Positions 11,557 through 47,295 of a stretch of 64,000 nucleotides of DNA are shown one piece after another. Position 1 is the first letter of the stretch. The number at the start of each line of letters is the position of its first letter. The stretch lies in assembly GCF_964212655.1 (NCBI RefSeq), contig NZ_OZ156465.1, positions 4,402,001-4,466,000 of the forward strand. Direction: 5' to 3'. This DNA comes from Candidatus Thiodiazotropha sp. LNASS1 (GTDB lineage: Bacteria; Pseudomonadota; Gammaproteobacteria; Chromatiales; Chromatiaceae). The translations under genes were made by a program, and so were the position numbers. The notes below the pieces were generated by a model that did no database searches, was not told the origin of the DNA, and saw only the letters and a program-made list of their open reading frames with translations.

Positions 11557-11830
11557 TGTGTACACCCGGCATGGGCATAAACTGATGGGGTGTAAGACCC
11601 CTGTAGCAGAACCACGGTCGATGATCGATGAACTGCATAGTGTCCCTCTCTGAGGCCGATTCCCTGTCAATTCATATATATTTGAGCTCAGCTACCAGCC
11701 GAGGAAAGGGCAAGCCTGTGAGGGGATGTCTGAAGGAAGCCTGAGCGCAAAACAGCGAGCCGACAGACAGAAACGTCATAGAAGGCCGACTTCCCTGTGG
11801 CGAGAGATGAGTTATTCAATGAACAGCAGA
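11557..11830 (+). ncRNA. Candidate structured RNA, possibly the 5' part of a degraded group II intron
   Basis: No open frame covers this stretch of the 600-bp gap after tRNA-Leu. It begins GTGTACACC and holds a GGGGTGTAAGACCCC hairpin at about 11588. Downstream at about 11735-11790 is a purine-rich block with GATGTCTGAAGGAAGCC, GCGCAAAACAGCGAGCC and CAGACAGAAACGTC. That block resembles my memory of domain I of bacterial group II introns. No domain V or reverse transcriptase follows, so if this is right it is a fragment. The 3' limit is arbitrary. A covariance-model search would decide; without one this stays tentative. Confidence 0.35.
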
Positions 11831-42467: not shown

Positions 42468-45400
42468 GTGAGCGCGACTCTCAATGATTTTCCCGATCCG
42501 TTAGAGATCAGGCATTGCATGCTGCGGGATCGGCATCGCCTCTATCGACAACTTCGCGGTCTGAGGAAACGTGAAGCCAGTGGGGGGGATTATTCACAAG
42601 GGCTGATGAAGCTCTGGCACTCCATTCGGTCGTCACAGCAGTGCCTGATGCAACGCCGTGAGAATCTGCCACAAGTCACATATCCCGAGGTGTTGCCTAT
42701 CAGCCAGCGGGTTGATGAGATCAAGGCGCTGATTCAGGATCATCAGGTGGTCGTGCTGTGTGGTGAAACCGGTTCGGGTAAATCGACACAGCTGCCCAAA
42801 ATCTGTCTCGACATCGGTCTTGGCCTGTCGGGATATATCGGTCACACACAGCCGCGCAGGGTCGCCGCCAGGACATTGGCAACACGAGTGGCGAGTGAAC
42901 TGGGCTCCACCACTGGTCAAGCGGTGGGCTACAAGGTGCGTTTCAACGATCGTGTTGGTCCCCATAGCTATATCAAACTGATGACGGATGGGATACTGCT
43001 CGCTGAAATCCAGCAGGACCCCTATCTCAATCAATACGATACTTTGATTATCGATGAAGCCCATGAACGCAGTCTGAATATCGACTTCCTGCTGGGCTAT
43101 CTGAAACAGCTGTGTATCAGGCGTTCCGATCTCAAACTGATCATCACCTCGGCGACCATAGATCCTCAGAGATTCTCCGAATATTTCCATAATGCACCCA
43201 TCGTAGAGGTATCGGGTCGCGCATATCCGGTGGAGGTGCGTTACCGACCGCCGGTTGAGGGGGGGGAGAACGAACGCGACGACCCGCTACAGCAGGCCAT
43301 CGTGGATGCAGTGGATGAGCTGTCGCTGATCGACCGGGGCGATATATTGATCTTTTTGAGTGGTGAGCGGGAGATACGCGAGACAGCAGAGACCTTGCGC
43401 AAACACAGACTTCCCGCCACCGAAGTTCTGCCGCTCTATGCGCGACTCAGCATTGAGGATCAGAACCGGGTGTTCAAGCCCCATACGAGCCGGCGTATCG
43501 TATTGGCCACCAATGTGGCTGAAACCTCACTGACGGTACCGGGCATACGTTATGTTATCGATACCGGCTATGCGCGCATCAGTCGCTATAGTCATCGCAG
43601 CAAGGTGCAACGCCTGCCTGTGGAATGCATAGCCCAAGCTTCGGCGGATCAGCGCAAAGGCCGCTGCGGCCGTCTCGCCGCCGGGGTCTGCATCCGCCTC
43701 TTCACTGAAGAGGATTTCCAGGCCCGTCGTCTCTTTACCGAAGCGGAAATACAGCGTACCAATCTGGCCTCCGTCATCCTGCAGATGAAACTGCTTGGAT
43801 TGGGTGAGATCAGTGACTTCCCCTTTATCGATCCCCCCGATCATCGTCTCATCAAGGACGGCTACCGGATACTGGAAGAGATCGGCGCGGTCGCCGGCGA
43901 TCGCAGAATAACCCGTCTTGGCCAGCAGCTCGCCCGGCTGCCTGTGGATCCGCGTATCGGCAGGATGCTCCTCTCTGCGGCTCATAGTCACTGTCTGAAA
44001 GAGGTAATGGTGATTGCAGCCGCACTGAGTGTGCAGGATCCGCGGGAACGTCCGGTGGATAAGCAGCAGTTGGCGGATGAGGCCCATGCGAGATTTCGTC
44101 ATGAGCAGTCTGATTTCCTGAGTTACCTCTCACTCTGGGAGGAGGTCGAGACGCAGAGAAAACATCTATCGAAAAACAAATTTCACCGCTGGTGCAAGCG
44201 GCTTTTTCTCTCCTGGAACAGGGTTCAGGAGTGGCATGACATACACCAACAATTGCGTGGACAACTGCATGAAATGGGGCTGCGTGAAAATAGTGCCGAG
44301 GCGGGCTATGAGGAGATCCATCGGGCCCTATTGAGTGGTCTTTTGAGTCATATCGGTTTAAAGAGCAACAGCCATGATTATCTGGGAGCGCGGAATACAC
44401 GCTTTTTCATCCATCCCGGCTCCGCTCTCTATAAAAAGCAGCCGAAGTGGGTCATGGCGGCCGAGTTGGTGGAGACCAGCAAACTCTATGCGCGAACCTT
44501 GGCGGTGATTCAGCCTGAATGGGTTGAGAAAGCGGCGGGACACCTGGTGAAACGCAGCTACTCTGAGCCCCATTGGGAGAAAAAACGCGGCCAGGTTGCC
44601 GGCTATGTGAAAGTCGCCCTGTTCGGCATTACCCTGATTCCGCGCCGTAAGATCAATTTCTCACCCATCGATCCGGTGGTCGCCAGGGATATTTTCATCC
44701 GCTCGGCGTTGGTGGACGGGGACTTTTACACTCGAGCGCCGTTCTGGCGTCACAATCAGACGTTGATCGAGGCCATTCATGACCAGGAAGCCAAATCGAG
44801 ACGGCGGGATATTCTGGTGGATGAGGAACGTATCTACAGTTTCTACGATCAGCGGATACCCGAGGGCATTTCAACCACACCCGGATTCGAAAAATGGTTG
44901 CGACAGCAGTCCAAGCAGCAGTCGAAACGCTTATATATGGATGAGTCCGACCTGATGAGGGACGGTTCGCAACGGATCTCCAGTGAGCAGTTTCCCGATC
45001 ATCTCGATATCAATGGTATGCGACTGCCCCTGGAGTACCAGTTCGATCCCGGGAGTGCACAGGATGGCCTTACGCTGATTGTTCCACAGGATGTACTGAA
45101 TCAGATCACCGAGGCGCGTCTGCAGTGGCTGGTGCCCGGATTGCTGAGAGAACGTGTGATTTCTCTGATCCGCGGATTACCTAAATCTCTAAGGCGTTCA
45201 TTCGTACCTGTTCCCGAATATGCCGACGCCTGTCTTGCCGATCTGCCGGACAGTGACAGGCCCCTGATACAGGTACTGGGAGAGCGATTGAAACAGCTCA
45301 GCGGAGTCCATATCCCCGAAGATGCATGGACTGAGGAGGATATTCCCGTTCACTTGCGCATGCGGGTGCGGGTTGTCGATCGGGGTGGGTCCACTTTGGA

Positions 45401-46379
45401 GCAGGGGCGGGATCTGGCAGGTATGAAGCGGCGGCATGCGGGGCAGACGCAGGCGCAGCACCGGCACCTCAACTCCCCCGGTTTTGAACGCAACGGTCTG
45501 AAGGATTGGGATTTCGACAGGCTGCCGAAACAGTTGGGAATAGAACAGGGAGGAATCACACTCCAGGGCTATCCTGCCCTGGTGGATGAAGGGGAGAGCG
45601 TAGCGATTCGTCTGCTCGATGCCGAGAGCAGCGCCTTGCGTTCCCACAAGGAGGGGGTGAGACGGCTGATAATGTTGAAAATGCCCAAGGAGATGAGGTA
45701 TCTGCGTAAAAACCTCGACCAGCTCGACCGGATGCGCCTGCTTTACGCCAAGGTGCCTGCGGTGGAGAAAGATCGGGAAGACGGAGAGCATCGGGATCTT
45801 GAAGATGAATTGGTATCGTTCATCGTCGATCGCACATTTCTCAACCAACTCCCGGAGATTCGCGATGGTAAGCGCTTTGAAGAGCGGCTGAGCAGCAGGC
45901 GGGGAAGACTGATGCAGCAGGCGAACAGCAGTTGTCAACAACTGCTGGAGATACTGGAACTGAGCCATCAAACCAGAAAAGCGATAAGCGCAATCACCCA
46001 GGTCAACTGGATGAGCTCTGCAATGGATATGCGGCATCAGCTGGAGCGTCTCGTCTATCGTGGTTTTCTGCAACATGTGCCGGATGAACGGCTCAGCGAC
46101 TACCCCAGATACCTTCAGGGTATTTCGAAACGGGTCGACAAACTGACCCATGCCGCGGCACGAGACCGGCAGCGTATGCATGAAATGGCGGAACTGCAAC
46201 AGCGATGGGAGCAGTGGGATCAGCAATGCAGGCAGCGTGGACGGGTTGACGATCGCATCGAGGAGATCCGCTGGGGATTGGAGGAGTTGCGCATTTCCCT
46301 GTTCGCCCAGGATCTGGGAACCGCCTATCCCATCTCGGTCAAACGCCTACTGAAGCGTATCAAAGAGATGGGACTCTAA
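42468..46379 (+). CDS. hrpA: ATP-dependent RNA helicase HrpA
   Basis: This large DEAH-box helicase acts in mRNA processing and rescue of stalled ribosomes in enterobacteria. Walker A GETGSGKST is at 99-107 and DEAH at 196-199. SATID, VLATNVAETSLTVPGIRYVID and QRKGRCGR follow. The HA2, OB-fold and the DUF3418 C-terminal domain specific to HrpA complete the 1303 aa. The start is GTG. Confidence 0.97.
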   Translation: MSATLNDFPDPLEIRHCMLRDRHRLYRQLRGLRKREASGGDYSQGLMKLWHSIRSSQQCLMQRRENLPQVTYPEVLPISQRVDEIKALIQDHQVVVLCGETGSGKSTQLPKICLDIGLGLSGYIGHTQPRRVAARTLATRVASELGSTTGQAVGYKVRFNDRVGPHSYIKLMTDGILLAEIQQDPYLNQYDTLIIDEAHERSLNIDFLLGYLKQLCIRRSDLKLIITSATIDPQRFSEYFHNAPIVEVSGRAYPVEVRYRPPVEGGENERDDPLQQAIVDAVDELSLIDRGDILIFLSGEREIRETAETLRKHRLPATEVLPLYARLSIEDQNRVFKPHTSRRIVLATNVAETSLTVPGIRYVIDTGYARISRYSHRSKVQRLPVECIAQASADQRKGRCGRLAAGVCIRLFTEEDFQARRLFTEAEIQRTNLASVILQMKLLGLGEISDFPFIDPPDHRLIKDGYRILEEIGAVAGDRRITRLGQQLARLPVDPRIGRMLLSAAHSHCLKEVMVIAAALSVQDPRERPVDKQQLADEAHARFRHEQSDFLSYLSLWEEVETQRKHLSKNKFHRWCKRLFLSWNRVQEWHDIHQQLRGQLHEMGLRENSAEAGYEEIHRALLSGLLSHIGLKSNSHDYLGARNTRFFIHPGSALYKKQPKWVMAAELVETSKLYARTLAVIQPEWVEKAAGHLVKRSYSEPHWEKKRGQVAGYVKVALFGITLIPRRKINFSPIDPVVARDIFIRSALVDGDFYTRAPFWRHNQTLIEAIHDQEAKSRRRDILVDEERIYSFYDQRIPEGISTTPGFEKWLRQQSKQQSKRLYMDESDLMRDGSQRISSEQFPDHLDINGMRLPLEYQFDPGSAQDGLTLIVPQDVLNQITEARLQWLVPGLLRERVISLIRGLPKSLRRSFVPVPEYADACLADLPDSDRPLIQVLGERLKQLSGVHIPEDAWTEEDIPVHLRMRVRVVDRGGSTLEQGRDLAGMKRRHAGQTQAQHRHLNSPGFERNGLKDWDFDRLPKQLGIEQGGITLQGYPALVDEGESVAIRLLDAESSALRSHKEGVRRLIMLKMPKEMRYLRKNLDQLDRMRLLYAKVPAVEKDREDGEHRDLEDELVSFIVDRTFLNQLPEIRDGKRFEERLSSRRGRLMQQANSSCQQLLEILELSHQTRKAISAITQVNWMSSAMDMRHQLERLVYRGFLQHVPDERLSDYPRYLQGISKRVDKLTHAAARDRQRMHEMAELQQRWEQWDQQCRQRGRVDDRIEEIRWGLEELRISLFAQDLGTAYPISVKRLLKRIKEMGL

Positions 46380-46430: not shown

Positions 46431-46464
46431 CTGTCATCAGACTGTCATGGAACGCTGTTAGAGT
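46431..46464 (+). promoter_or_regulatory. Consensus Pho box and -10 element
   Basis: CTGTCAT (46431-46437) is repeated exactly 11 bp later (46442-46448), the spacing and sequence of the PhoB-binding consensus. A -10-like TAGAGT at 46459-46464 follows 10 bp after it, as in PhoB-activated promoters that lack a -35. It points to plus-strand transcription starting near 46471. Confidence 0.75.
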
Positions 46465-46470
46465 TAGCTG

Positions 46471-46606
46471 CGTTGGAATGGTTTTAGAGAATGCCTATAC
46501 CGGTTAACTGAATAGAGGCGGACTCAGTGTGGAATCGTTCCGTTTTTCCAGTCTACAGCCTCAATGATAGAGGCCTTCAAGGTGGGTGTTCACCCACCTT
46601 TTTTTC
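46471..46606 (+). ncRNA. Candidate PhoB-controlled small RNA
   Basis: Between the Pho-box promoter and a strong terminator lie about 135 nt with no credible open frame; the longest is a 9-codon frame at 46479 without a ribosome site. The RNA can form an inner hairpin (GGAA/TTCC inside GGACT/AGTCT, about 46519-46554), a second one (GCCTC 46558-46562 with GAGGC 46570-46574) and the terminator. The next gene, ychJ-like, starts 200 bp after the terminator. No known RNA family was recognised. Confidence 0.55.
46580..46606 (+). terminator. Rho-independent terminator of the candidate small RNA
   Basis: AGGTGGGTG (46580-46588) pairs perfectly with CACCCACCT (46591-46599) around TT, followed by an uninterrupted T-run. 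It lies 200 bp after the end of hrpA. Confidence 0.9.
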
Positions 46607-46806
46607 GTTCTGAAGAGAGGGCACCAGGCCCTGATCACTCGCTTGCCGTAACGCTACGTCGGTGCCCAAAGCAGGAGCCGTTAATCGCCAAGACCGTCGT
46701 GGCGGGAGATCATGGCTCAAATCACAGGCGAAGCCATCATCCCCTTGGTGTTAAACAGGCGCTATGTTATTGTTCCCACTTAATAAATATTCATGCGGAG
46801 GAGACC

Positions 46807-47295
46807 ATGGCTGGATGTTACTGTGGATCTGGTGTCGCTTATGAGAACTGTTGCGGACCAATCCATGAGGATGCTGCAAAGGCGGATACAGCCGAGAAAC
46901 TGATGCGTGCACGTTACAGTGCGTTTGGCGCCAGAAAGGCGGAGTTCCTACATCAATCCCTGCACCCGGATCATCGTCATGATCACGATATTGAAGCCAC
47001 ACGGCGATGGGCGGAAAATGCCGAGTGGCTGGGCCTGCAGATTATGGATGTTCAAGGTGGAGGAGAGGCCGACGAAGAGGCTAGTGTGGAGTTTGTCGCC
47101 ACCTATAAAGAGGGGGGGATGGTCAGGCCGCATCATGAAATCAGCCGTTTTCTCAAACAGGACGGCGTTTGGTATTTTGTTGATGGTCAGCTTGTGGCGC
47201 CGAAAACCGAGAAACGCCACCAGCCGAAGGTCGGCCGGAATGATCCATGCCCCTGCGGCAGCGGCAAGAAATATAAAAAATGTTGCGGCGCATGA
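46807..47295 (+). CDS. YchJ-family protein with SEC-C zinc motifs
   Basis: The 162-aa protein has SEC-C type metal motifs at both ends ([14 protein letters not shown] at 4-17 and [17 protein letters not shown] at the C-terminus). Between them is the YchJ NTF2-like domain ([18 protein letters not shown]). Function is unknown, though the C-terminal motif resembles the SecB-binding tail of SecA. The frame is open to 46564, but the ATG at 46807 with GGAGGAG directly upstream and CYCGSG at its start is clearly the real one. Confidence 0.92.

Follow-up and report, generated by a model that had tools for sequence, protein, structure and literature searches.

Does the stretch between hrpA and a ychJ-like gene hold a small RNA gene that is switched on by PhoB, and what would such an RNA do for the cell? 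Since PhoB is known mostly for activating genes, how a cell starved of phosphate shuts others down is a question in itself. The original prediction, made on a stretch of 64,000 nucleotides (hereafter the window), pointed to a small RNA driven by a Pho box. The putative RNA gene lies between its two neighbors, and all three share one strand:

42468..46379, + strand: hrpA, the upstream neighbor (TIGR01967, 1725 bits)
46431..46448, + strand: Pho box made of a pair of CTGTCAT half-sites in 11-bp register, replacing the -35 element (repeats in 19/19 species, at this register or at this one and others in 11-bp steps upstream)
46456..46464, + strand: extended -10, TGT-TAGAGT (10 nt and then TAnnnT past the last half-site, 19/19)
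46470..46605, + strand: predicted small RNA of ~136 nt (covariance models R1 and R2)
46475..46541, + strand: hairpin 1 (helices 1-3), with covariation
46546..46553, + strand: UUCCAGUC, conserved unpaired run and proposed seed (each base in at least 18/19; unpaired 0.75-0.88)
46558..46574, + strand: hairpin 2, GCCTC/GAGGC (this helix paired in 100% of cells in both alignments)
46579..46605, + strand: intrinsic terminator (two-sided changes in 4/10 pairs)
46807..47295, + strand: ychJ-like SEC-C gene, the downstream neighbor (YchJ-type NCBIfam models over the cut-off)

The elements on which the original prediction was built are all present. The exact CTGTCAT repeats, 11 bp apart, occupy 46431-46437 and 46442-46448 and are the sole exact pair in the window (CTGTCAT-N4-CTGTCAT occurs once in the 64 kb and zero times in 100 shuffles), while the same pattern at ≤3 mismatches gives 7 matches vs 6.45 expected, no excess over chance. 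The -10 hexamer TAGAGT (46459-46464, with TGT directly 5') stands at the right distance, 10 nt from the box, and the terminator is a perfect 9-bp stem (46579-46587/46592-46600) followed by 7 T. The predicted RNA would start at 46470/46471 and end at 46605; a fold of 46471-46606 (-44.5 kcal/mol, z -2.74) bears out the three hairpins proposed. The interval had also been described as lacking a credible reading frame. An ATG at 46564 within the RNA does open a frame that continues through the ychJ-like gene to 47295, but a search for a conserved reading frame in the RNA across relatives found none. A small peptide was likewise rejected: the longest frames starting in the RNA begin at differing places and span 13 to 62 codons, some of them shortened because only 60 nt of downstream sequence was included in the count.

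By blastn, the RNA was present in 10 of 56 genomes, counting G000. Covariance model R1, trained on nine of these ten copies, recovered the RNA at full length in 20 of the 22 genomes of the host genus (all with E ≤1e-9), 11 of which are absent from the model itself; its best matches in the two remaining genomes, G006 and G017, had E values of 0.2 and 0.245. A second model, R2, was built from all 20 copies and scores 143.3 bits on the window. Over 210 genomes of the order, it returned the same 20 strong matches and three weak ones, in G006, G017 and G106, with E from 0.0097 (G006:C5) to 0.052 (0.044 for G106, which belongs to another genus). Family-wide, the RNA is found in 20/210 genomes and 1/61 genera, with no credible covariance-model match outside the host genus among the 210 genomes, and an R2 search of 44 sequence sources returned the window's copy only. 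Among the 20, G056 comes from the same species as the window and has the same RNA; the 19-species counts used throughout omit it. Seven weak loci (R1 ~20-23 bits, G017:C38 included) were discarded as further copies, being hairpin-T terminators with no Pho box at ≤1 mismatch. In Rfam 15, no family reached the gathering score for the RNA, and the highest-scoring weak match lay on the opposite strand (19.1 bits, E 0.62). Elsewhere in the window, a group II intron D1-D4 match at 11712-11808 barely exceeds its gathering score (32.5 vs 32 bits); it lies ~430 bases past the last of three tRNAs.

The stems covary among these copies. In the model-fitted alignment (20 rows, 18 distinct), pairing holds in 95.6% of cells and 15/36 pairs have changed on both sides (70 cells), against 37-59% of cells pairing when the alignment is slid by 1-3 columns. 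A MAFFT alignment that was not fitted to the model (19 rows, 18 distinct, helices 1-4) gave 95.5% paired, with 11/26 pairs changed on both sides (51 cells) and 37-60% paired when slid. These figures are favored, because the consensus structure was derived from nine of the aligned sequences, the other ten being independent. On one measure, that of further pair types, shuffled alignments did as well in 69 and 82 cases out of 500. Across seven representatives, the folding z of the whole RNA ranges from -1.5 to -4.1, but that of the first 108 nt, which leave out the terminator, only from -0.2 to -1.9, which makes folding energy on its own a weak argument.

Within this structure, UUCCAGUC (columns 79-86) is the sole stretch longer than three columns to combine conservation with a mostly unpaired state, and the U-tail contributes three further conserved, mostly unpaired columns. 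Judging from this pattern, UUCCAGUC is likely the pairing seed; it is partly paired in two of seven single-sequence folds (G018 and G013). Hfq is encoded in all 14 genus genomes searched, and several features of an Hfq-type sRNA (its own predicted promoter, an intrinsic terminator with a U-run, a conserved unpaired seed and an Hfq gene) are found together here.

A PhoB-controlled RNA could instead act by binding a protein, for example as a decoy such as a CsrA-type sponge, with no base pairing. The original prediction had listed four GGA triplets, only some of them in the transcript, and they indeed occur at 46449, 46475, 46520 and 46531, the last three inside the predicted RNA. Hairpin 1 is large and well kept, which would fit this alternative, and GGA recurs near RNA position 6 in 16/19 species and near position 62 in 12/19 (near position 51, in 6/19). 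However, the two better-kept triplets occupy stem rather than loop positions of the consensus structure, which gives the CsrA hint no support and led us to reject a sponge of the CsrB/RsmY type, for which several loop GGA are needed, and the best-kept unpaired run is UUCCAGUC. We therefore consider this alternative unlikely and retain base pairing as the preferred mode of action.

The promoter points to PhoB. The window's box is identical to the query used for PhoB sites, CTGTCAT(N4)CTGTCAT, in PMC2573895, and its distance of 22-23 nt to the predicted start fits the 22-25 nt given for boxes overlapping the -35 element in PMC3616915. We scanned the 70 nt 5' of each RNA in the 19 species for the best TGTCA-N6-TGTCA pair, which had 0 mismatches in six, 1 in five and 2 in eight; the mean of 1.1 compares with 3.7 (sd 0.18) in shuffles, and 0 of 1000 rounds were as low. 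This pair ends 22-23 nt 5' of the RNA in 14/19 species, and in the other five (G001, G003, G004, G007 and G011) it sits one or two 11-bp registers farther upstream, and the promoter-proximal register holds a repeat that is as good or weaker. Read from the printed sequences, the promoter-proximal repeat is followed by 10 nt and then TAnnnT in 19/19. In six representatives, the RNA itself is clearly more similar than shuffled sequence (0.76 vs 0.58), whereas the pre-promoter stretch (0.58 vs 0.55), the whole promoter (0.63 vs 0.59) and the 60 nt past the terminator (0.57 vs 0.57) are barely so or not at all; the boxes are thus kept amid an otherwise drifting stretch. All 19 species that have the RNA have kept both the Pho-box-like repeats and the terminator, and the stems covary, which supports the original reading. 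In our assessment, it is very probable that this is a genuine small RNA gene controlled by PhoB.

The same layout of 11-bp repeats, a 10-nt gap and a -10 element is found before phoB, pstS-1 and pstS-2 in the same genome. The pstS-2 gene of the pst-phoU cluster has TGTCATCAAACTGTAAT, 10 nt and TATAGT; phoB of the phoB-pstS-pstC-pstA-pstB-phoU operon has TGTCATCTTTATGTAAC, 10 nt and TTTAAT; and pstS-1, whose product falls below the NCBIfam cut-off and was named by domain and operon, has several 11-bp repeats, 10 nt and TATTCT. Three repeats also lie upstream of a Na/Pi cotransporter gene, oriented away from it. Among relatives, the phoB-upstream box has 1 mismatch in 15 of the 18 loci scanned (a set that left out G008) and 4 mismatches in the stretch examined in G001, G003 and G011, and the best pair upstream of pstS-1 has 1-3 mismatches in 18/19, with none recognizable in G008. 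Loose sites are common genome-wide (97 at ≤1 mismatch vs 42 in a backward control), and of five exact TGTCAT-N5-TGTCA sites in the genome, three adjoin no recognized phosphate gene, one of these falling inside a long frame. In both G000 (L229) and G018 (L234), Pho-box-like repeats stand upstream of a PilZ-domain gene beside phoB, or at the start of that gene, perhaps a link between phosphate and c-di-GMP.

The RNA also occurs together with the phoB-pst operon. PstS-1 of this operon is found in 20/22 genus genomes, the same 20 that have the RNA. A PhoB search of 16 genomes found a high-scoring protein (338-346 bits) in 13 and a partial match in G008; G006 and G017 had a lower-scoring PhoB-family protein only, which adjoins a phoR-like gene in G000, G006 and G017 (assigned in the latter two by similarity of first residues). 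G006 and G017 are thus without the operon-type PhoB/PstS pair. They form one clade (support 96/98 in a 21-row tree of the HrpA C-terminus), so the joint absence of RNA and operon counts as one evolutionary event. In G000, the PhoB cut-off is exceeded by two proteins, encoded in the pst operon (341 bits) and next to phoR (308 bits); this genome thus combines two PhoB-family regulators with two pst clusters (L229, L230, L220).

With 93 matches to the PhoB model in G000, mostly other regulators, the RNA might be driven by a different member of the OmpR family that recognizes a similar direct repeat. This is highly improbable, given that the box equals the PhoB query of PMC2573895, that its layout matches that before phoB and the pstS genes, and that it is absent together with the phoB-pst operon. 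PhoB remains the preferred regulator.

The place of the RNA is constant: in RNA-bearing genomes of the genus it always lies downstream of hrpA, starting 67-103 nt past the hrpA stop in 19/19. The frame after it begins with the ychJ-type CxCGS in 16/19, the printed frame in the other three (G000, G008, G009) being an upstream-extended version; the closest named relative of the ychJ-like protein comes from a gammaproteobacterial bin (69%). G006 presents an empty site, in which hrpA is followed by ~40 nt and then directly by TATGTTATTGTTC, the motif preceding ychJ, and in G017, which also lacks the RNA, a different sequence follows hrpA. When 28 hrpA loci from other genera were scanned, the best box pair within 300 nt past the frame had 2-4 mismatches, although three rows were no proper test of hrpA because a minus-strand frame was used (L125, L139) or only 128 nt were available (L122). 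Separately, GCTATGTTATTGTTC at 46761-46775 of the window precedes the ychJ-like gene and is perhaps its own promoter or operator; it has 0 mismatches in nine of the 19 relatives and 2 in four, was not found in the other six, and occurs with 1 mismatch in G006, a genome without the small RNA. That there is no free RNA, and that the element either serves the ychJ-like gene as a leader or derives from the 3' end of the hrpA transcript, is barely credible: the common strand, the small gaps, including that to the hrpA stop, and the open frame from 46564 through ychJ would fit, but a promoter is kept in front and a terminator behind, the frame is not kept in relatives, and hrpA and ychJ adjoin in G006 without the element.

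What would the small RNA act upon? We searched for GACTGGAA 3-14 nt 5' of an ATG and obtained 184 matches in four genomes, in a search that covered chiefly perfect sites before ATG starts. We read 110 loci, comprising all distinct places of G000 and G002, 15 of G001 and 10 of G018 (for which 13 of 47 matches were listed), and found the site before a start in 13 frames. No gene recurred between clades when the first residues of these 13 frames were compared by eye in this partial search. A response regulator has GACTGGAA or ACTGGAA just 5' of its start at six loci (L368-L373, in G002, G010, G016, G012, G007 and G008). Across 14 genomes, GACTGGA precedes the G002 response regulator in 2/14 and ACTGGAA in four more, all of one clade; the seed-complementary site makes it a possible clade-specific target.

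Conservation, covariation, the promoter layout common to phoB and pstS, and the co-occurrence with the operon can all be read from the sequences; we infer transcription, binding of PhoB and Hfq, pairing, repression and the existence of targets. Under low phosphate, phosphorylated PhoB would bind the direct repeat at 46431-46448, which would stand in for a -35 element, and recruit RNA polymerase to the extended -10. An RNA of ~136 nt ending at 46605 would be produced, exposing UUCCAGUC unpaired between two hairpins. Hfq would handle this RNA with its U-tail, and the RNA would pair with mRNAs, most likely lowering their translation. PhoB, an activator, could thereby also turn genes down. We judge it likely that the locus encodes a PhoB-activated, trans-acting sRNA that works by base pairing and gives an activator regulon a repressing arm; it is probably a means by which the phosphate switch turns other genes down. 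Counting against this reading are the abundance of loose Pho boxes, the three of five exact sites without a phosphate neighbor, the lack of a conserved target in the partial search, the part-paired seed in two of seven folds, and the fact that the joint absence of RNA and operon is a single evolutionary event.

Our literature search found PhoB-linked sRNAs, none shown to be PhoB-activated in the texts accessible to us, which excluded most subscription papers; exact phrases such as "PhoB-activated sRNA" gave no match. The original remark that PhoB-activated sRNAs are rarely described outside enterobacteria needs changing, as EsrL, the E. coli sRNA found by our search that is likewise connected with PhoB and phosphate (PMC12351708, PMC10294691), is described in PMC12351708 as repressed by PhoB, in contrast to the activated-promoter layout seen here, and PMC10294691 reports that PhoB binding at its site was not seen in K-12. 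In Sinorhizobium meliloti, candidates such as smrC15/smrC16 resemble our RNA in that a predicted PhoB site precedes the sRNA, but this is a prediction in one genome, where sRNAs raised by starvation had no evident PhoB site (PMC2573895). The Pseudomonas aeruginosa sRNA1060 and sRNA1062 are also wired to the Pho system, but they are LasR-driven and act on the phoB mRNA, so that the direction of control is reversed (PMC12506140).

Gene shut-down would gain a direct route through a conserved sRNA that has a PhoB-type promoter, and the genus-wide family, with its structure and seed, makes the idea directly testable. RyhB and PrrF are sRNAs of iron starvation. In the proposed logic, the likeness lies in a starvation regulon acquiring a repressing arm by way of an sRNA bound by Hfq; the differences are that Fur is a metal regulator and a repressor whereas PhoB is an activator, and that neither RNA matches ours in sequence in Rfam. 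We give an even chance to the full proposition that the RNA is a phosphate counterpart of RyhB, a PhoB-switched sRNA with the invariant seed UUCCAGUC that forms the repressing arm of the regulon and is kept, and absent, together with the phoB-pst operon.
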